Program-made: the position numbers and the translations under genes
Notes under the pieces: generated by a model
Told to the model about the DNA's origin: nothing
The model's input: only the letters and a program-made list of their open reading frames with translations
Databases searched by the model: none
Shown here: positions 686-64,000 of the stretch, piece after piece
Numbering within the stretch: position 1 is the stretch's first letter
Layout: every line of letters starts with the position of its first letter
From: Persicirhabdus sediminis
GTDB taxonomy: Bacteria; Verrucomicrobiota; Verrucomicrobiia; Verrucomicrobiales; Akkermansiaceae
Assembly: GCF_016595495.1 (NCBI RefSeq)
Contig: NZ_JAENIM010000046.1
Coordinates: 1-64,000 of the forward strand
Reading direction: 5' to 3'
DNA: 64,000 bases

Positions 686-789
686 CCTTGGGTTGCGTTG
701 CCCCTTCGGGGCTGCCTTACCCAAGGCTAGGCTGTTTCACGCCTTCGGCGTAGGCATGCCAGCTGGAACCGAAAGCGGTGCTAAAGCAC
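686..789. repeat. cluster of palindromic elements with UUCG-type loops
   Basis: An outer stem CCTTGGGT/ACCCAAGG (686-726) encloses CCCCTTCGGGG (701-711). It is followed by ACGCCTTCGGCGT (739-751) and GTGCTAAAGCAC (778-789). The last hairpin resembles GCGCTTTAGCGC in the 228-bp repeat at the other end of the window, so both look like members of one interspersed family. The outer stem has the same layout as the GTGGGT...ACCCAC elements near 27.95 and 28.67 kb. The sequence is not coding. Confidence 0.65.
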
Positions 790-859
790 GCACACTCTAA
801 ACACCGCTATGCCAGCAGCTGAGGATCTTAGCTATACTTTCCACTGAAGCGATGTTTAC

Positions 860-1138: not shown

Positions 1139-3541
1139 CTAGGCTGGAGCACTGACTACATCACCAGCAACTGGGCCATCATCTTCATCTTCGCCAGACT
1201 TGCGTGGTGGCTCAGGTGCAGATGTTTGATTGCCGTCTGGAGTAGGCGGCGGCGTTGGTGAACTTGGTGGGTTTGACATGGAACCTTTCTCCATGAGGTC
1301 AACAATCTGCTGGCCGTCTAGAGTTTCGTATTCAATCAATGCCTGAGTTACCAGCTCGAGGGTGTCGCGGTTGGCCACGAGCATTTCGGTCGCCTTGACG
1401 TAGGCTTCGTCAACGAGACGCTTGATCTCACTATCGATCGTATTTGCGGTTTCCTCAGAGTAACCACGGCTACCGCCAGCATCTCTAGCGTAAACGACTT
1501 CACCTTGGTCACTACCGTACTGGATCATGCCGAGTTTTTCACTCATGCCCCATTGGGTGACCATTTGGCGGGCAATATTTGTCGCCTGGCGAATATCCCC
1601 CATGGCTCCATTAGTCACATTGCCAAAGATGATTTCTTCCGCAACGCGTCCGCCCATAGCAACGACCAGCTGATCGAGCAGCTCGTTAACGCGGTAGTTG
1701 AAGCGATCTTCTGTTGGCAGGAACATTGCCATACCGAGAGCTGGACCGCGCGGAATGATGGTTACCTTATGAAGTGGATCTGTGTGCTCTAGGAGAACAT
1801 TGAGAATCGCATGGCCAGCTTCGTGGTAAGCGGTATTCTCTTTTTCTTTTTCACTAAGCGCCATACTACGACGTTCACGCCCCCAACGAACTTTATCACG
1901 AGCTTCTTCCAGCTCCTTAATCGTCACCTCTTTGAGGCTACCGCGAGCGGCAAGCAAGGCAGCTTCGTTGATCAAGTTTGCCAGCTCAGCACCAGAGAAA
2001 CCAGGAGTTCCGCGAGCAATGATTTCGAGATTTGTATCCGCAGCTAGCTTGATATTTCTCACGTGCACGTTGAGAATTTCTTCACGTCCTTTGACGTCAG
2101 GAAGACCAACACGAACTTCACGGTCAAAGCGACCCGGACGCAGCAGAGCTGGATCCAGAACATCAGGACGGTTAGTAGCCGCAATGATGATAACACCAGA
2201 TGTGGCATCAAAACCATCCATCTCCACGAGAAGCTGGTTGAGTGTTTGCTCACGCTCATCGTGACCACCACCTACACCGTGTCCACGGTGACGACCGACG
2301 GCATCAATCTCATCGATGAAAATCAGACATGGAGCGCTCTTTTTGCCCTGCTCGAACATATCGCGCACACGGCTAGCACCCACACCCACAAACATCTCAA
2401 CGAAGTCTGAGCCGGAGATAGAATAGAATGGCACATCAGCCTCGCCAGCTACAGCACGCGCAAGCAATGTTTTACCGGTTCCCGGAGGGCCCACCATCAA
2501 TACACCTTTAGGTAACTTGCCTCCGAGCGTTTGGAATTTCTTAGGATCGCGCAGGTAATCAACGATTTCCCACAGCTCTTCTTTGGCCTCTTCAATACCA
2601 GCAACATTTTTGAATGTCACCTTGTTGGTCTCATGATTGAGCAGCTTGGCTTTGGATTTACCAAAACTCATTGCGCCCTTACCAGCGGACTTCATCTGCT
2701 GGCGGAATAAGAAAAAGAGCACTAAGATGATGAGCAAAATTGGCAGCAGATTGAACATCAGCATTTTCAAGTTGCCAGTCTCAATCTGAGTTTTGGCAAT
2801 GCTTGAGATGAAATCTTTTTCGTCTTCTGGGAAACTTGCGTAGTTTAGATCCACTTCAAATGGCGCCAGCTTGATGTCCTTTTCATCAGGATTAGCAATG
2901 CGCTCCACCTTGTTGTAGCGGCCGAGAATATACGCAGAATCGCTACCATTGATAGAAACGATGGATAATGGCTCTTCTTTCGCATTGGCCAATACATCAC
3001 CACGAGCAATACGCTCGCGAAGATCTTTCAATGTGAGAGAATCACGACCTTCAAGAGATGGCACTGCGTCAGCGCTGACGTTTGGCACATTCAGACCTCT
3101 GAGGATCTGATTAACCTCTTTGACGTTGAGCTGCTTGTCGATTGTGACCACAAATGGGAACTCCCCTTTGTTTTCGTATTTAAAGCCGTCATTTTTTGGA
3201 TCGCTATAATAATAGCCTTTGAGTTTAGCAGTAATACCAGCATCCCCCACAGCAATGAGGCGATGTTTGGTATTTGGCTCCACACCTTCAGTTGGATCAG
3301 GCAAATCAGTCTCAACGACAATTTTGCCCTGATCGACCATGGTGCGGAATTCGCTATAATCAAAAACCTTGGCTTTCTCTGAGCTCATGGTCATCGCGGC
3401 AAACAATATCGTACCGCCAACTAGAAGGAGAATTAGTACACGCCAATTCATGCCCCCTGATTGTGGGTTTTTATCATTAGGTCGCACGGGAGGCCGATTT
3501 TCTGGTGGTTTCGGTGATTCGGGTGGTCGTTGATCAGACAT
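1139..3541 (-). CDS. ftsH: ATP-dependent zinc metalloprotease FtsH
   Basis: FtsH is a membrane-anchored AAA+ protease that extracts and degrades misfolded membrane proteins and short-lived regulators. At 800 residues it is longer than the usual ~640-700. Visible in order: a Pro-rich N-terminal cytoplasmic tail (1-30), a membrane helix (about 32-50), an enlarged periplasmic domain (about 55-255), a second helix (about 260-280), Walker A GPPGTGKT (about 351), Walker B LIFIDEID (about 406), the AAA second region of homology ending RPGRFDREV, and the zinc site HEAGH (about 573). The C-terminal 40 residues are Pro/Ser/Asp-rich and probably disordered. It is transcribed alone, divergently from the ABC gene at 3700. 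Confidence 0.97.
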
Positions 3542-3699
3542 TCTGTATCTTATTTTCGGGTAAAATCATTTATCGCACAGCGGCGAGCCAGCATAGCACA
3601 GGAATCCTGAGCAGGCTAATCAAGCAGGTGAGTTGATAGGCCGGATGGCGTGCGCAACGTAACGCAGCTTGAAAAAAAGAAAATCCTTTTTTCAACAGC

Positions 3700-6600
3700 T
3701 TGCGCCGAGCGCCATTTCACGCCACCATCGGTGCCGTGGCAAGCAATCAACACAAAGTCAGCCTAAAAAGTAAGCTTTTAAGTCGATTAGAGACACTTCC
3801 AGGCATTCAACGCATGGTTTCGCGCGAGCCTAGAAGCATGACACATGCTGGCTCGCTGATTGATGTTTTTGCCGCATTTGTCTCGCTGGACAATCAATTT
3901 GCCCAAGGCGAAGCCAACGTGGCGCTAGACTTACTTCGCCATGCCTTCCCCGAGGCCGACCACGGGTGGATTGCCCGCCGACTTCGCCGTGCACTGCGCT
4001 CGCCAAAGTCAATCGACGAAATCAGCGAACAGATCCAAGGGTCGATTCAAGCCGAAGAACTCGTGCACGGCTGCATGCAACTCTACTTGCTCGTAATGAG
4101 CTCGGGATCTCAACAAGTGAGCACCGCAGCTTTCAAGCAACTGCTAGACGCAGTCAATGCGGCTGATTTGGCCGAATCGATCATCACGGAATTTTCCGGC
4201 AAGGCCGATAGCAAAAAGCTGCCCTTTGACAAAATCACCCTAGCCCACCAAGACGCCGATATCCTGCTGCCCGACCACGCCATCGGCTGCGCACTGAATG
4301 CCTACCGCAGCGGCAACATCATCATCATCCGCAACATGGGCGCCGAACGACTATGGTTGAGCGGAACCTCGCTAGCATCAGGCGACTGCCTGCGCATGCG
4401 CAGCCACCAAGTGATCACCATTTCCAGCTGGAGCCTGAACTATGATGACCTGTCATTTTTCCTCAATGCCAAGCGTACAGGCGTTGGCCAGACGCTATTT
4501 TTACATGAAACGGAAAATGGCCTGAGTATCGAACGCGTAAAAAGTAGCCAGAGCTGTTTGAAAGTCACCATTGGCACCAAGGTGGAAGTGGAAGCAATCC
4601 GCGACGCGGCGCTGATCGCGCTGCAGCCGTATGCTCTTGAGCTCAACCAAGCCATCCAGCTAGCGATGAGCGAGAGCCTCAACCTCAGCTCGGGCTCGGC
4701 AATGACCATGGACCAGTTGCGGCTGCAGGCGATGAAAGTTGGTCGTAGATTTAAAATCCAAGCTGGCAAACAACAATGCCGACTCTCTAATGATGCCTCC
4801 GCGCTGAAGCGTGGCGACGTGTTATTATCCCCAGGTCTAGCTAGACGATGCATTCTCGACATTCGCTACAATTCTAACTCAGGAAGTGGTAGTGTTCGGG
4901 TGGTAGAAGCCGAGCGTACTATCATTGTGGATGGCGTGCCAATCAGACATCAGACACGCCTACACGAAGGGTCACTCATCCAGCTGAGCGCCAACCAAGC
5001 AGTACGCTGTCGATTCAAAGACGGCATTCTAGCAGAGGAAAGAAATGTCATCAACGAGCTGTCACTCAACAGCCTAACACACAGTTTTGGTTCTGGGCAA
5101 AAAGCGCTAGATAACGTGGATTTCTCCATCAAGCGCGGTGAGATGCTCTGCATCATTGGTCCCAGTGGCAGTGGTAAAAGCACTCTGCTCTCAGTCATTG
5201 CTGGCCAGCTGCGCCCCGACCGCGGGCAAATCCAGCTGAATAACCACTCACTCTATCACCAGCTCGACCGCCTGCGCCCATTCATTGCCAACATGCCGCA
5301 AGAAGAAGCGCTTAACCCGCAGCTAACGGTACGCGAACACCTCAGACACGCGTCGATGATTAGACGCCCACACCTGTCGCAGCGCGAACACGAAAAGCGC
5401 GTGGACCACGTGCTAGACGAACTTGCTCTACAACCACTCGCCCACCGTCGGGTTGGTACAGCTGGCGACAAGAGTCTATCAGGCGGAGAACGCAGCCGCC
5501 TCAACCTTGGCTTAGACCTCAGTAGCGGTGCCGAAGTTTTCCTATTTGATGAACCTATCTCCGGTCTATCATCCAAAGATTCAGAACACGTGGCTGAGTC
5601 ATTACGCGCGCTGGCTAGAAATAAAATCGTCATTGCCTCATTGCACCGCCCCGGTGCCTCAGTGCTGTCGATGTTTGATAAAGTATTAGTGTTAGACAAT
5701 GGCGGCAAAGTAGCCTTCTACGGATCGCCTAATGAAATGGTGCAATATTTTGCAGATGCCTGTGACGACTATCAAATCACATCAGCCAAACGGCCAGATG
5801 CGCTAGAACACACATTTTCAGCTGGCGCTGACTTTGTCTTCGACGTTCTCGAGACAGAGATGTTTGACAGCGGCGGCATGGGCGGAAATAGACGATTTTC
5901 ATCAACCTTCTGGCAAGAACGCTTCGAGAGTAAAATGCTGATCACGCGGTACAACGAGCCGCAGCAGATGGATACCAAGGAAGCTGATCAACGAAAAGAA
6001 GATGGCGGCATCCCAACTCCCCTACTCAAACGCTACCAGCGCTGGAAAGAATGGCATCGATTGTTCCGCACACATTTTGAGCGATCATTTCTATCAAAGT
6101 TCCGCAACCGCGGCACCATCTATAGCATCATTTTAGAAGCCCCGCTGCTCGCCTTACTCATCGGCCTAACATTACGTGCATCTTCTGAGGGAACTTATGA
6201 ATTCTACACCGGGCTACATATCCCCGTGTATCTATTCCTCACCGTCACTATCGGCATGTTCCTCGGCCTAACCAACAGCGCTAACGAAGTCTTGCGCGAC
6301 ATGCCCGTACTGCGGCGCGAGCGCAATACACGCTTTAACGCCTCCCTCTATCTGCTGGCAAAGTTTTCCTCTTTAAGCATCCTAGCAGGCTTGCAATGTG
6401 CCATCTACACAGTAGTTGGCCATTTCATGCTAGAAATCCATAACATGTGGTTTGATATGTGGTTATGGATGACCATGACGGCATTGTGCGGCACCTGTAT
6501 CGCCCTGTTTGTATCTTCATGGGTCAATAGCGAGCGAGCAGCTCTCAGCTCAGTACCGCTTCTGCTAGTACCCCAGTTATTGTTAGCTGGCGCACTAGTA

Positions 6601-26679: not shown

Positions 26680-27315
26680 ATGCCCAACGAACTTGTCCCA
26701 GCCGACCAATACAACGACCAATCCGCGCTTGTGGTGCGGGCGATTCGTGAGTTTGCCGCTCATATTCCCAAATCCGACGAACCCATCGCCATCCACCCAG
26801 ACGAGCGCGCTCGTGAAATCGTCAACCGCGCGTGCATCAAAACCGCAGGAATCGCCGGCACACTGGCCATTCCTCCCGGTCCAGCTGGCATGGCTCTCAT
26901 CATCCCAGATCTCGTCGCCGTGTGGAAAACTCAGCAACAAATGGTCTCCGACGTCGCCGCCTGCTACGGCAAAACTTCTACGCTAAACTCCCAGCTGATG
27001 ATCTACTGCCTATTCAGACACGGCGCCGCAGTAGTCACGCGCGACATCGCCATCCGCGTCGGCGAGCGCCTGCTCATCAAACATGCCAGCCTCAAAACCA
27101 TGCAGAATATTTTGGCCAAACTCGGCATCAGCGTCAGCCAGAAACTTATCGGTAAATCTATTAGCCGCTGGGTCCCACTCGTCGGCCCCGCCGTCATGAG
27201 CGGCTATTCGTATCTCGATACCAAACGAGTCGGCAAAACCGCCATCGAATCATTCCAAGGCCCCATCGAAATGATAGATGCCAACACCGAGCAGCTAGAA
27301 ACCCCAGTCAGCTAG
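26680..27315 (+). CDS. EcsC-family protein
   Basis: The 211-residue protein has Gly/Ala-rich hydrophobic segments (GIAGTLAIPPGPAGMALIIPDLVAVWKTQQQMV, VPLVGPAVMSGYSYLDTKRVGK) typical of EcsC-family proteins, whose role is poorly defined. Its last seven codons (QLETPVS) and stop are read from the first copy of the adjacent 17-bp tandem repeat, so the present C-terminus is repeat-derived. Confidence 0.75.
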   Translation: MPNELVPADQYNDQSALVVRAIREFAAHIPKSDEPIAIHPDERAREIVNRACIKTAGIAGTLAIPPGPAGMALIIPDLVAVWKTQQQMVSDVAACYGKTSTLNSQLMIYCLFRHGAAVVTRDIAIRVGERLLIKHASLKTMQNILAKLGISVSQKLIGKSISRWVPLVGPAVMSGYSYLDTKRVGKTAIESFQGPIEMIDANTEQLETPVS

Positions 27316-27462
27316 AAATCTCAACCAGCTAGAAACCCCAGTCAGCTAGAAACCCCGGTCAGCTAGAAACCCCGGTCAGCTAGAAACCCCGGTCAGCTAG
27401 AAAACCCCGGTCAGCTAGAAACCCCAGTCAGCTAGAAATCTCAACCAGCTAGAAATCCCAGC
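27298..27462. repeat. 17-bp tandem repeat array
   Basis: About nine units of CAGCTAGAAACCCCGGT and variants (ACCCCAGT, ATCTCAAC) lie head to tail, with one unit carrying an extra A. The first unit encodes the end of the EcsC-like protein and its TAG stop. The core CAGCTAGAAA is the word that recurs throughout the intergenic regions. Confidence 0.92.
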
Positions 27463-29100
27463 TGGGCCGAAGGTCCCAAAGAACAAAGCCCAGGGCTTCA
27501 GCCCTAGGATAAGTCCCTCCACAATGCCAGCCTGCTGAAAGTAGGCCAGAACCGCCAAGTTGAGCCATTCCAGCCAGCTAGAAATCCCAGCTGGGCCGAA
27601 GGTCCCAAAGAACAAAGCCCAGGGCTTCAGCCCTGGGATACCTCGCCCACGTGATAAGCCTGCTGAAAGTAGGCCAGAACCGCCAAGTTGAGCCATTCCA
27701 GCCAGCTAGAAATTCCAGCCAGCTGGCTAGCCCGGAGGGCTATAGGACTTTAGCCGCGGGTAAGCGAGCTCAGCGAGCGCAACCCGTGGATAGCCGCCCC
27801 AAAGACAAAATTTCCCGAAGGGAAAAGGGAAAACGCAGCACACCAAAATTGATAACCCTGCTAAAAACATGCGACTAGCCAGAATCTATCGCCTCAACAC
27901 CATTCCATTCTGCCTCCGGCAGACCATCTAAATCCAAGCTTCCGTGGGTGGCACTCGCTGAGCTCGCTTACCCACGGCTAAAATCTTTAAAGCCTCCGGC
28001 TTTGGAAGGCTGTATTTCGAAAAGAAGCCATTGGTCTCTCAGCTAGCCCCAGAGCAGATAGAAATAACCAGCCCGTTAGCATCCCTACCAGCTAGAAACC
28101 CCAATCTGCTAGAAACCCCAACCAGATAGAAACCCCAATCTGCTAGACCAACCCAGCCCGTTTGCATCCCTATCAGCCAGAAACACCAGCTGGGCCGAAG
28201 GTCCAACAGAACAAAGCCTAGGGCTTCAGCCCTGAGATACCTCCCCCACATGATAAGCCTGCTGACAGTAGGCCAGAACCGCCAAGTTGAGCCATTCCAG
28301 TCAGCTAGAATTTCCAGCTGGGCCGAAGGTCCAAAAGAACAAAGCCTAGGGCTTCAGCCCTAGGATACCTCGCCCTCATGATCAGCCTGCTGAAAGTAGG
28401 CCAGAACCGCCAAGTTGAGCCGTTCCAGTCAGCTAGAAACCCCAGCCAGCTGGCTAGCCCGGAGGGCTATAGGACTTTAGCCGCGGGTAAGCGAGCTCAG
28501 CGAGCGCAACCCGTGGATAGCCGCGCCAAAGACAATATTTCCCGAAGGGAAAATGGAAAACGCAGCACACCAAAATTGATAGCGCTGATAGAACTATGCC
28601 AATAGCCAGAATCTATAACCTCACCTCCATTCCATTCTGCCTCCGGCAGACGATCTACATCCAAGCTTCCGTGGGTGGCACTCGCTGAGCTCGCTTACCC
28701 ACGGCTAAAATCTTTAAAGCCTCCGGCTTTGGAAGGCTGTATTTCGAAAAGAAGCCATTGGTCTCTCAGCTAGCCCCCAAGCAGATAGAAATAACCAGCC
28801 CGTTTGCATCCCAACCAGCTGGAAACCCCAATCTGCTAGACCAACCCAGCCCGTTTGCATCCCAACCAGCTAGAAATTCCAACTGGGCCGAAGGTCCAAC
28901 AGAACAAAGCCCAGGGCTTCAGCCCTGAGATACCTCCCCCACATGATAAGCCTGCTGACAGTAGGCCAGAACCGCCAAGTTGAGCCATTCCAGTCAGCTA
29001 GAATTTCCAGCTGGGCCGAAGGTCCAAAAGAACAAAGCCTAGGGCTTCAGCCCTAGGATACCTCGCCCTCATGATCAGCCTGCTGAAAGTAGGCCAGAAA
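27463..29100. repeat. tandemly duplicated ~0.73-kb non-coding repeat block
   Basis: Two near-identical units share landmarks about 727 bp apart. GCCCGGAGGGC...GCCGCGGG is at about 27730 and 28457; the GTGGGT...ACCCAC hairpin is at about 27943 and 28669. A third partial unit ends at about 29095. The sub-element CTGGGCCGAAGGTCC followed by AGGGCTTCAGCCCT occurs six times (about 27471, 27591, 28190, 28318, 28883, 29011). Most sub-elements are short hairpins with three-base loops, for example TTTCCC-GAA-GGGAAA and AAAGCC-TCC-GGCTTT. Short frames inside (27651-27878, 28378-28605) are translations of the repeat, not genes. Confidence 0.9.
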
Positions 29101-29145
29101 GCAAGGCCTCGGCATCCAACTGCCCAGCTGAGCCCAATAATTCAG

Positions 29146-29182
29146 CAAAAAAATCAGCCAGCTAGAATTTCCAGCTGGCTGA
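29146..29182 (-). terminator. terminator of gdhA
   Basis: On the minus strand, TCAGCCAGCT/AGCTGGCTGA is a 10-bp stem followed by seven T. It lies 24 bp beyond the gdhA stop. Confidence 0.8.
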
Positions 29183-29205
29183 GGTGAGTGAAATAACAAA
29201 CCAAG

Positions 29206-30582
29206 TTAGACGGCACCGTAACCACACATGGCATCAGCCACCTTGATGAAGCCGGCGACGTTAGCGCCGGTTTTGTAGTCGACTGAGCGGCCAGGTCGCT
29301 GGCCATGGACGATGCATTTGTCGTGGATTTCTTTCATAATCCCCTGCAGTCGTCCCTCAAGCTCTTCGCGTGACCAGCTGATGCGCAGTGAGTTTTGGCT
29401 CTGCTCTAGGCCCGAGACAGCCACACCGCCAGCATTGGCTGCTTTAGCTGGCCCAAACAGAACATCCTTCTCGAGGAAATAATGCATGGCCTCAGCTGAG
29501 GTTGGCATGTTAGCACCTTCAGAAATTGCTAACAGACCATTTTTGACCAGCTCTTTGGCGTCATTGAGGTCTAGCTCATTTTGCGTAGCACACGGCAGGG
29601 CGATGTCACATGGCACTGACCATGGATTTTCTCCAGCGCGGTATTCGGCACCAAATTGCTCGGCGTACTCGGAGATACGACCGCGGCGCTTTTCTTTCAG
29701 ATCTATCAACCAAGCTAGTTTATCTCTATCAATACCATCTCTATCATAGATGGTGCCGCCAGAATCTGAGGCGGTGTGCACGGTGGCTCCTAGATCTAAT
29801 AATTTCTCAATCGCATAAAGCGCTACATTGCCAGATCCTGATACGCTGGCTTTTTTTCCAGCTAGATCAATGCCGGCGTGCTCTAGCATGTTTTGCACAA
29901 AATACACGGCACCGTAGCCAGTGGCTTCTTTGCGCACCAGGCTACCACCGTAGGAAAGCCCTTTGCCGGTGAGCGCACCGTGCCAGCGATTTTCTAGCCG
30001 CTTGTATTGGCCAAACAAATAACTAATTTCACGCGCGCCCACACCAATATCACCAGCTGGAATGTCGCGATCTGGGCCGATGTGACGGTGCAGCTCTATC
30101 ATCAGCGAGTGACAAAAGCGCATCACTTCGCGGTCAGACTTGCCTTTTGGGTTAAAATTACTGCCACCTTTAGCTCCCCCCATCGGCAGCCCCGTCAGGC
30201 TATTTTTAAAAACTTGCTCAAATCCGAGAAACTTCAGAATGCTCTGATCCACGGATGGATGGAAACGCAGACCACCTTTATATGGCCCTATCGAGTTGTT
30301 AAATTGCACACGCCACGCACGGTTGGCACGCAGGTGGCCTTGATCATCTTCCCAGGTGACACGGAAAATAATAATGCGATCAGGCTCAGTCATGCGCTCT
30401 AGAATGTATTGATCACGATACAGTTGGTGCTCAGAGAGAAATGGAATCACACTCTCAGCAAACTCGCGTACCGCCTGGTGAAAAACCACTTCACCTTCAT
30501 TCCGGCGGATCAGACCATGCATAAAACGCTCGATCTCGTTGTCAAAATAGCCCGTTGGCTTGGCAATCCATGATTCACTCAT
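29206..30582 (-). CDS. gdhA: NADP-type glutamate dehydrogenase
   Basis: The 458-residue hexameric-type enzyme interconverts glutamate with 2-oxoglutarate and ammonia. The substrate-binding region GPYKGGLRFHPSVDQSILKFLGFEQ, the catalytic-Lys segment PMGGAKGGSNFNPKGKSDREVMRFC, the DIGVGAREI motif and the NAD(P) segment VSGSGNVALYA are all present. The Ser/Thr-rich sequence after the dinucleotide motif is compatible with NADPH use (inference). It is a single gene with its own terminator. Confidence 0.96.
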   Translation of the reverse strand: MSESWIAKPTGYFDNEIERFMHGLIRRNEGEVVFHQAVREFAESVIPFLSEHQLYRDQYILERMTEPDRIIIFRVTWEDDQGHLRANRAWRVQFNNSIGPYKGGLRFHPSVDQSILKFLGFEQVFKNSLTGLPMGGAKGGSNFNPKGKSDREVMRFCHSLMIELHRHIGPDRDIPAGDIGVGAREISYLFGQYKRLENRWHGALTGKGLSYGGSLVRKEATGYGAVYFVQNMLEHAGIDLAGKKASVSGSGNVALYAIEKLLDLGATVHTASDSGGTIYDRDGIDRDKLAWLIDLKEKRRGRISEYAEQFGAEYRAGENPWSVPCDIALPCATQNELDLNDAKELVKNGLLAISEGANMPTSAEAMHYFLEKDVLFGPAKAANAGGVAVSGLEQSQNSLRISWSREELEGRLQGIMKEIHDKCIVHGQRPGRSVDYKTGANVAGFIKVADAMCGYGAV

Positions 30583-47709: not shown

Positions 47710-47738
47710 TTCCCGCCTGCAGGTAGAAAAAAATACTC

Positions 47739-47937
47739 TCCGCTTAGCAGCTCAGGCGCAGCCTTTGGACTGCGGCGATCCTTCGCCGCTTTTACCTCAA
47801 TGCTGCGAATTCCCTCAAACAGCCGATCTGCTCTAGCCGGTCATCTCTACCCCACCCAGCTGGAAGAGAAAAAACCTCTCCGCTTAGCAGCTCAGGCGAA
47901 GCCTTTGGACTGCGGCGATCCTTCGCCGCTTTTACCT
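47739..47937 (-). repeat. two REP-like elements upstream side of the RAYT gene (inverted orientation)
   Basis: Two copies of a ~60-bp element carry the 18-bp palindrome GCGGCGATCCTTCGCCGC at 47772-47789 and 47912-47929. The palindrome is preceded by GCAGCTCAGGCG...AGCCTTTGGACT. They are the reverse complement of the elements at 48.66-49.23 kb, so the RAYT gene is bracketed by REP arrays pointing in opposite directions. Confidence 0.85.
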
Positions 47938-47970
47938 AAAAATCCCGCACTCACCCCAAGCCATCAGCAG

Positions 47971-48513
47971 CTAAAAATCATCAGCAATACTGATCCTATC
48001 AGTTTTATAACTACTCACAGTTTTCACCATTGCGGAGCTGGAGTTTTTACTGAACCAGCGAGCTGAACACCAATCATATTGCTCAGCATGACTGACTAGC
48101 CCGTGATGAACTGGGTTTTCGTGAACATACTTCAATCTAGCAAAATATGACGCGGTATAAGTTATCTGTGAATCCCAGTAGTTATGCCAAACTTTTCTAC
48201 CAGCCACACCGTCTAGCTTGTTGACAAAAATCGCTGATTCGCGGTGGATTTGGCTCAACATCTCAGCCAGCCGTTGCGTGCCATCTTTTGGTGATAGCCC
48301 AACAAAGTGATAATGGTTTGATAGAGCTGCCCAGGCCTGTGGCCGCCAGCCATATTGCTCCATTAGATCTAGCATCAGATTGCATAAAAACCGCAACCTC
48401 TTGCGGCTAGCAAAGTAGTGCTCCTTTTGGTAAGTCCCAGCTGTAACCATATAGGCACCACTAACGCCTCGATAATGAGGCGGAGCATGAGGCCATTTTA
48501 TTTCTGCCCCCAT
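47971..48513 (-). CDS. REP-associated tyrosine transposase (RAYT, Y1/HUH family)
   Basis: The 180-residue protein has the Y1-transposase signature: the HUH motif in SNHYHFVG, a downstream region YWDSQITYTASYFARLKYVHENPVHHGLV that holds the candidate catalytic Tyr and the NPV..GLV motif, and the N-terminal RGVSGAYMVTAGTY. RAYTs cut and join single-stranded DNA at REP palindromes and are usually single-copy, domesticated genes rather than selfish transposons. REP-like arrays on both sides here support this. The frame is intact. Confidence 0.9.
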   Translation of the reverse strand: MGAEIKWPHAPPHYRGVSGAYMVTAGTYQKEHYFASRKRLRFLCNLMLDLMEQYGWRPQAWAALSNHYHFVGLSPKDGTQRLAEMLSQIHRESAIFVNKLDGVAGRKVWHNYWDSQITYTASYFARLKYVHENPVHHGLVSHAEQYDWCSARWFSKNSSSAMVKTVSSYKTDRISIADDF

Positions 48514-49296
48514 ACAGTGATTTTAGCACAAGCAGCTTAGTTAAATCTAGCTCGATCTTTTTTGACCTTAACATGAGTGATTGTGGCACTCGTTAGCTGA
48601 ATACTTATTAGGGAAAGTAGCTTGAGAAGTAGCTGAATACTTAGGGTGTAGCTAGCTTGAACGGTGAAATCGGCGAAGGATCGCCGCACTCCAAAGCCTT
48701 CGGCAGAGCTGCCTAGCTGGCGGCAAAAGCAGCGTAGCTAGCTGGAGCAATTCTCTGGGTTCTAGCTAGATGTGGGCGGATAGAAATAATGGGATGGTTA
48801 GGAGAAATCGGAGCGTTGCGGTAAAAGCGGCGAAGGATCGCCGCACTCCGAAAGCCTTCGGCAGAGCTGCCTAGCTGGCGGCAAAAGGATCGTAGCTGGC
48901 GGCAAAAGCAGCGTAGCTAGCTGGAGCAATTCTCTGGGTTCTAGCTAGATGTGGGCGGATAGAAATAATGGGATGGTTAGGAGAAATCGGAGCGTTGAGG
49001 CTAAAGCGGCGAAGGATCGCCGCGCTCCAAAGCCTTCGGCAGAGCTGCCTAGCTGGCGGCAAAAGGAGCGTAGCTGGCGGCAAAAGGAGCGTAGCTGGCT
49101 GGCTGCGTATTCAGCAAGTTGGAGGTATTCTCTGGGTTCTAGCTAGATGTGGGCGGCTAGAAATATTGGGATGGTTAGGAGAAATCGGAGCGTTGAGGCA
49201 AAAGCGGCGAAGGATCGCCGCACTCCAAAGCCTTCGGCTGAACTACCTAGCTGACAGCAAAAGCTGCGTAGCTGGCGGTAAAACGCGTAGCTAGCT
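48514..49296 (+). repeat. REP array: four palindromic elements with linker repeats
   Basis: The palindrome (G)CGGCGAAGGATCGCCGC occurs at 48671-48687, 48827-48844, 49006-49023 and 49204-49221. Each copy is followed by (A/G)CTCC..AAAGCCTTCGG and one or more GTAGCTGGCGGCAAAAG units. Between copies lies a second conserved block (TTCTCTGGGTTCTAGCTAGA then GTGGGCGG) at about 48752, 48930 and 49130. The spacing varies from 156 to 198 bp through different numbers of the GCTGGCGGCAAAAG sub-repeat. No gene is present. Confidence 0.9.
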
Positions 49297-63485: not shown

Positions 63486-63495
63486 GCGCCTTATT

Positions 63496-64000
63496 GAGAA
63501 GCTAGCAAAAGCACGGCCAGAGGCCTAAGGTGCGCAACGCTGCAAAAAATGCACAGAGAGTATAGTAAAAGCCCAGCAATCTAGCTAGCCGCGTCCTATC
63601 TCGCAGGCACTCACTCATCTCTCTTCTCCACTCACTATTCAATCCCGCAGGGATTGCAGGCATCTAGACTGCGTGCGCTTTAGCGCCGCTCTCAGCTTCC
63701 AGCCACACGATAAAGTATTTGTGGAGAAGCTAGCAAAAGCCCGGCCAGAGGCCTAAGGTGCGCAACGCTGCAAAAAATGCACAGAGAGTATAGTAAAAGC
63801 CCAGCAATCTAGCTAGCCCCGTCCTATCTCGCAGGCACTCACTCATCTCTCTTCTCCACTCTCTATTCAATCCCGCAGGGATTGCAGGCATCTAGACTGC
63901 GTGCGCTTTAGCGCCGCTCTCAGCTTCTAGCCACACGATAAGGTATTTGTTGAGAAGCTAGCAAAAGCCCGGCCAGAGGCCTAAGGTGCGCAACGCTGCA
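63496..64000. repeat. 228-bp tandem repeat continuing past the window end
   Basis: Units begin (GAGAAGCTAGCAAAAGC) at 63496, 63724 and 63952, exactly 228 bp apart, and differ at only a few positions. Each unit contains hairpins: CCCGCAGGG (three-base loop), GCGCTTTAGCGC and GGCCAGAGGCC. No open frame is maintained. The array starts directly after the tRNA terminator and is cut by the window edge. Confidence 0.92.

Follow-up and report, generated by a model that had tools for sequence, protein, structure and literature searches.

What lets a RAYT pick out its own REPs, and why these nearly always carry a GTAG tag, are open questions. Both are raised by a locus in the window, the whole 64,000-nucleotide stretch of Persicirhabdus sediminis DNA analysed here, in which the initial annotation had seen an intact Y1/HUH transposase gene between REP arrays of opposite orientation. 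We read this locus as a REPtron (probability about 0.85), in which a single-copy RAYT (TnpAREP) gene is flanked by inverted REP hairpins that would be its DNA substrates; cutting and movement of the hairpins are inferred. At the level of sequence, our comparisons establish the gene, the hairpins, their inverted architecture, their genome-wide dispersal, the conservation of the RAYT-REP pairing across phyla, a GAGT/GACT (GAST) foot instead of GTAG, and substituted guide-contact residues. The REPtron is a known kind of system, and its GAGT/GACT guide is apparently undescribed.

The RAYT gene and its flanking hairpins

The annotated transposase was confirmed as an intact 180-aa frame on the minus strand, and the reported hairpin count also held: to the left of the frame are two plus-strand copies, and to its right are four minus-strand copies. 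The features are as follows.

47716-47940, plus strand: tandem array left of the gene, with two ~85-nt repeats that are 91% alike and lie 140 nt apart
47767-47792, plus strand: REP-1 copy, GGACT foot and 7-bp stem, TCCT loop and TTT
47907-47932, plus strand: REP-1 copy, GGACT foot
47971-48513, minus strand: RAYT-1, 180 aa, predicted Y1/HUH transposase-like single-strand nuclease with HYH, Y129 and the YVHENP motif
48127-48129, minus strand: Y129 codon (catalytic tyrosine), a residue that does not vary among the 48 homologs aligned
48307-48315, minus strand: HYH codons (residues 67-69, the metal-binding HUH motif), likewise without variation in the 48 homologs
48667-49283, minus strand: tandem array right of the gene, made up of four units (157-198 nt) that include 21-nt TAGCTGGCGGCAAAAG sub-repeats
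48667-48692, minus strand: REP-1 copy, GGAGT foot, final stem base altered
48824-48849, minus strand: REP-1 copy, GGAGT foot
49003-49028, minus strand: REP-1 copy, GGAGC foot
49201-49226, minus strand: REP-1 copy, GGAGT foot

RAYT-1 carries its HUH motif as H67-Y68-H69, and Y129 opens the stretch YVHENP, the class 2 Y...NP signature; both are invariant or nearly so across homologs. A Pfam search with RAYT-1 gave no match. The NCBIfam profile NF047646 (REP_Tyr_transpos) matched it with an E value of 4.5e-21 and 75.3 bits, below the curated cut-off of 80, and RAYT-2, a second RAYT of this genome, likewise scored under the cut-off. This cut-off is strict, because among 14 controls (searched at E<=1e-15) E. 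coli alone passed. A sequence search with RAYT-1 matched E. coli TnpAREP at an E value of 0.0023. The AlphaFold model, built from an alignment of 48 homologs, reached a pLDDT of 88.5, and its top PDB match in Foldseek was 4ER8, TnpAREP with a REP hairpin (E 5.9e-10, TM 0.61-0.65), followed by the IS608 and ISDra2 transposases. The annotated combination of a RAYT with inverted flanking REPs is upheld by this family profile and fold, by the genome-wide REP copies and by the conservation of the architecture in relatives.

The REP-1 hairpin, GCGGCGATCCTTCGCCGC, lies on the plus strand at 47772 and 47912 and on the minus strand at 48670 (last base altered), 48827, 49006 and 49204. Its six feet are GACT in two copies, GAGT in three and GAGC in one. 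The variable spacing had been ascribed to sub-repeats, and this was correct in part: unit lengths in the right array are 157, 179 and 198 nt, and the step from 157 to 179 nt is one extra copy of the 21-nt sub-repeat, while the 198-nt unit has a different insertion. An Rfam scan of the locus returned nothing above threshold and one sub-threshold match, unrelated to REPs. Elsewhere in the window, positions 27275-29235 hold nested tandem and inverted repeats unlike REP-1 and REP-2 (the hairpin family of RAYT-2), with units of 17 nt (CAGCTAGAAACCCC) and of 128 nt, and an inverted pair of 59 nt (CCGCGGGTAAGCGAGCTCAGCGAGCG...).

Dispersal of REP-1 and its pairing with the RAYT

An absence of other REP copies had been named beforehand as evidence against a RAYT/REP system. 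Searching the genome with the 18-nt REP-1 hairpin at <=2 mismatches gave 85 matches, against 0 for a reversed-pattern control, a number well above chance. The stretches of the genome examined in detail hold at least 88 copies, grouped in 36 clusters with 1 to 10 members each. Long ORFs make up 70% of the stretches checked for coding overlap, but just 4 of 71 copies fell inside them. Stem variants keep their pairing around a constant TCCT loop (GCGGCGA/TCGCCGC, GCGGAGA/TCTCCGC, GCGGTGA/TCACCGC and GCGCCGA/TCGGCGC). When pairing was not required in the search, 60 of 70 copies were still fully paired at the four tested positions and the other 10 had one mismatch. What different clusters have in common is limited to about -25 to +21 nt relative to the start of the hairpin (~45 nt), whereas within one cluster flanks of 100 nt and more are also common. 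The simplest reading of this pattern is insertion followed by local tandem amplification. REP clusters reiterated together with flanking DNA were described by Di Nocera et al. (PMC3733652), and the array form itself is already known.

Of 260 genomes in the family (Akkermansiaceae), 46 yielded homologs, and 62 loci came from named records, which covered Verrucomicrobiota, Planctomycetota, Lentisphaerota, Kiritimatiellota, Armatimonadota, Acidobacteriota, Chloroflexota, Ignavibacteria and others. A tagged hairpin lay within 400 nt of the RAYT at 78 of 89 homologous loci, mostly of the PVC superphylum, and on both flanks at 68 of the 89. The commonest hairpin order was + - gene + -, equivalent to two REPIN-like pairs. 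In the aligned hairpins all seven pairs had two-sided changes, with a covariation score of 0.755 against 0.160 for shuffled sequences, although these hairpins had been preselected as paired. A fairer test for that reason is one without preselection of the stem, in which a 3' arm able to pair was present at 234 of 345 TGGAST sites near RAYTs, where 24 were expected.

Hairpins also follow their RAYT. Over 14 positions, the two flanks of one locus differed by 0.68 mismatches and different loci by 5.9, and REP distance tracked RAYT protein distance (Mantel r 0.35, p 0.0005). RAYT-positive genomes held a median of 9.5 GAST REPs above control and RAYT-negative genomes 0 (p 1e-8, uncorrected for kinship below genus). 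The association of RAYT with REP count was also found within genera g8 (p 0.003) and g9 (p 0.006). Thirteen relatives had at least 10 REPs above control but no RAYT match at the threshold used.

These data bear on three other explanations of the locus. In the first, replication slippage and gene conversion spread passive tandem repeats beside a relic RAYT. This would fit the local homogenisation of the REP-1 arrays, and the window does have other tandem arrays that lack the REP-1 hairpin. However, slippage fails to account for a 45-nt element that recurs at 36 unrelated places, or for the co-variation of REP with RAYT. In addition, most RAYT homologs within the family have open frames, and purifying selection in relatives is indicated by dN/dS values in close homolog pairs of mostly 0.03-0.15 and at most 0.34. 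We regard this explanation as unlikely, while slippage may well be the step by which arrays grow.

A self-mobile IS200/IS605-like insertion sequence with the hairpins as its ends is very unlikely. It would share the Y1/HUH fold and the inverted hairpins at both ends, but IS200/IS605 elements are autonomous and occur in several near-identical copies, whereas RAYT-1 is single-copy in the genome (its one relative of comparable length shares 59% identity with it) and at least 88 hairpins stand without the gene. Moreover, the class 2 Y...NP signature found here contrasts with Y..Q in IS200 (PMC6006769). TIRtrons (TIRYT, subclass 2.1) also differ, having a long protein with an extra C-terminal HTH and long TIRs unlike REPs, compared with 180 aa and hairpin REPs here.

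The genome also encodes longer RAYT-like proteins (frames of 353-445 aa), which were considered as REP partners and rejected, as inverted REP flanks were found at none of the 12 loci examined. A multi-copy family of ~410-aa RAYT-like proteins (loci L069-L081, on contigs C34, C45, C41, C29, C32, C31, C12 and C43 of genome G000) lacks flanking REPs and has several copies at contig ends. It may represent an IS-like element that is active and interrupts the assembly.

Very unlikely, too, is that the hairpins are intrinsic terminators or RNA elements that lie near the RAYT by chance. A GC-rich stem followed by TTTT has the look of a terminator, and three of the six REP-1 copies at the locus pass a terminator scan, a number close to the shuffled mean. 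Yet terminators need neither a conserved 5' GGAST nor 10-unit tandem arrays, nor an inverted arrangement around one gene family in many phyla. REPs may have been co-opted as terminators.

The hairpin foot and the guide-contact residues

A GTAG-type tetranucleotide at each hairpin had been suggested, and here the locus departed from the suggestion: its feet are GACT, GAGT or GAGC, and the GTAG of the TAGCTGGCGGCAAAAG sub-repeat lies away from the foot. Across all 88 REP-1 copies the feet were GAGT in 44, GACT in 35, GAGC in 8, TAGC in 1 and GTAG in 0, and the triplet after the stem was TTT in 85. The same foot recurs in relatives. A motif-free census at 86 homologous loci, comparing near with distant flanks, found GAGT at 48 versus 4, GACT at 34 versus 6 and GTAG at 4 versus 1. 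GGASTGC was present at 74 of 86 loci in near flanks and at 11 of 86 in far flanks (Fisher 2e-23). Among perfect 7-4-7 hairpins at homologous loci, the foot was GAGT at 23, GACT at 13 and GTAG at 0. Conservation runs from about TTTG ahead of GAST through the TTT past the stem. In L167, L171, L174 and L175 (Chloroflexota) and L178 and L179 (Ignavibacteria), a GGAGT foot precedes stems that do not begin with GC (GGAGTC.., GGAGTGCATC..), which shows that conservation of the foot is separate from that of the stem.

In E. coli TnpAREP, residues W94, Q95, E100, H101 and R104 are involved in GTAG contact (PMC6006769). Among 89 RAYTs of the GAST clade, the position of Q95 is H, Y or F in 82 (mostly H), that of H101 is T or S in 80, and that of R104 is T or S in 85. 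Canonical Verrucomicrobiota RAYTs, in contrast, keep Q95 in 24 of 25, have H or R at H101 in 25 of 25 and keep R104 in 24 of 25; at their loci GTAG feet were found at 12 of 27 and GAGT at 0 of 27. The GAST and canonical RAYTs form separate clades with support of 100/100. The residue at R104 is not a strict predictor of the tag, because L174 keeps R there and yet has GAST feet. A basal Armatimonadetes homolog, L181 (34% identical), has GTAG-like REP feet (at 3531-3930 and also upstream of 2995) and Arg at the R104 position. This one long-branched sequence hints at a possible pre-switch state and at a guide switch inside the clade.

An ordinary GTAG-type RAYT/REP system would be identical in kind in protein superfamily and inverted architecture, and GTAG does occur in the 21-nt sub-repeat, but with no GTAG foot in any REP-1 hairpin or perfect 7-4-7 hairpin, and with R104, H101 and Q95 replaced, it is the least probable account of the locus.

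The REPtron reading was compared with the systems described so far. The E. coli TnpAREP with its GTAG REPs (RAYT group 2, subclass 2.2; 4ER8; PMC8266576, PMC6006769) is alike in the Y1/HUH fold, the Y...NP signature, a fixed 5' hairpin foot, inverted flanking REPs and dispersed, extragenic REPs. It differs in that its foot is GTAG rather than GAGT/GACT, in that WHN-[YF]x[DE][TS]x[LI]T here replaces its WQPRFWEHAIR, and in that the REP-1 stem is a perfect 7 bp without a bulge. TnpAY1 subclass 2.8 (PMC6006769), matched to its published description only, resembles our proteins in NHYH, W[YH], Y...NP and a proline-rich N-terminus (WPHAPPH), but was reported in Cyanobacteria with GT[AG]G REPs, whereas the present clade is mainly from PVC phyla and has GAST REPs. 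When plasmid records were searched for a cyanobacterial member of subclass 2.8, only two distant matches came up. Class 3 TnpAY1 (PMC6006769) is likewise found in Planctomycetes and Acidobacteria with REP-like structures and a non-GTAG foot, but that foot is CnGA and its Y-motif ends in Q, in contrast to GAST and Y...NP.

Apart from this CnGA foot, the described REP superfamilies are GTAG and CGTC (PMC3733652). REP-1 shares with both the tagged hairpins, compensatory stem variants, HH dimers and clusters with tandem-reiterated flanks (Di Nocera 2013, PMC3733652). It differs from the GTAG superfamily, of which Opitutus terrae (Verrucomicrobia) is a listed carrier (PMC3733652), in a foot that is neither GTAG nor GTGG in any of 88 copies. 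It differs from the CGTC superfamily, which has a CGTC end and no associated transposase, in its GAST foot and associated RAYT. Literature searches of open-access papers found no description of a GAST tag, and a search for GGAGTGCGG with palindromes returned nothing relevant.

A second RAYT/REP pair and the proposed mechanism

RAYT-2 lies on the same contig, 43 kb from RAYT-1 (G000:C46:90594-91121), and is its 59% identical relative; the two are sisters in the tree with support of 100/94. It stands between inverted arrays of five and four copies of its own hairpin, GAGTGCGCGTGCTTTAGCACCGC, unlike REP-1. The REP-2 family numbers ~43 copies genome-wide, including a subfamily with a compensated stem, GACTGCGTGCGCTTTAGCGCCGC. 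Judged by sequence, the genome has two RAYT/REP pairs, of which RAYT-2 is the sister copy with diverged REPs. Three REP-2 copies fall in the window.

772-799, minus strand: solitary REP-2 copy, GAGT foot
63665-63692, plus strand: REP-2 subfamily copy, GACT foot, stem GCGC..GCGC replacing GTGC..GCAC, first of a 5-copy array that extends past the window end
63893-63920, plus strand: second REP-2 subfamily copy of that array

The solitary copy adjoins a 23-nt tandem repeat, ACCTTCAGCGCAGCGAACCTTAG, of ~7 copies at 837-1080. The other two belong to a tandem array of 228-nt units directly after a tRNA-Val gene (63491-64000 in the window, continuing to ~64600 of contig C46), every unit of which contains one REP-2 subfamily hairpin with the compensated stem.

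By analogy with TnpAREP biochemistry (PMC8266576), the RAYT would bind the foot and hairpin of a single-stranded REP. It would then cut beside the hairpin through Tyr129, forming a 5'-phosphotyrosine link, and transfer the strand, so that REPs would move in trans. From the conservation of the flanks, the cut sites would lie near TTTG|GAST and GC|TTT. The copy pattern suggests that a REP of ~45 nt lands in an intergenic site, where it may then be amplified in tandem with 100-160 nt of local DNA, giving arrays of up to 10 units.

Taken further, it is reasonably probable that the GAST REPs are a third tagged REP superfamily with a RAYT clade of its own in PVC bacteria and their neighbours, that the switch from GTAG to GAGT/GACT accompanied substitution of Q95, H101 and R104, so that guide recognition would be a readable protein code, and that RAYT duplication in one genome led to two REP families. 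Here an entire clade uses a different tag, and the residues known to touch the tag have changed to match, while canonical GTAG RAYTs occur in the same phylum. The link between residue and tag is now directly testable by residue swaps and oligonucleotide cutting assays. Our findings also greatly widen the range of REPtrons among PVC bacteria, and from the arrays one can see how tandem growth at a site may start from a single REP.
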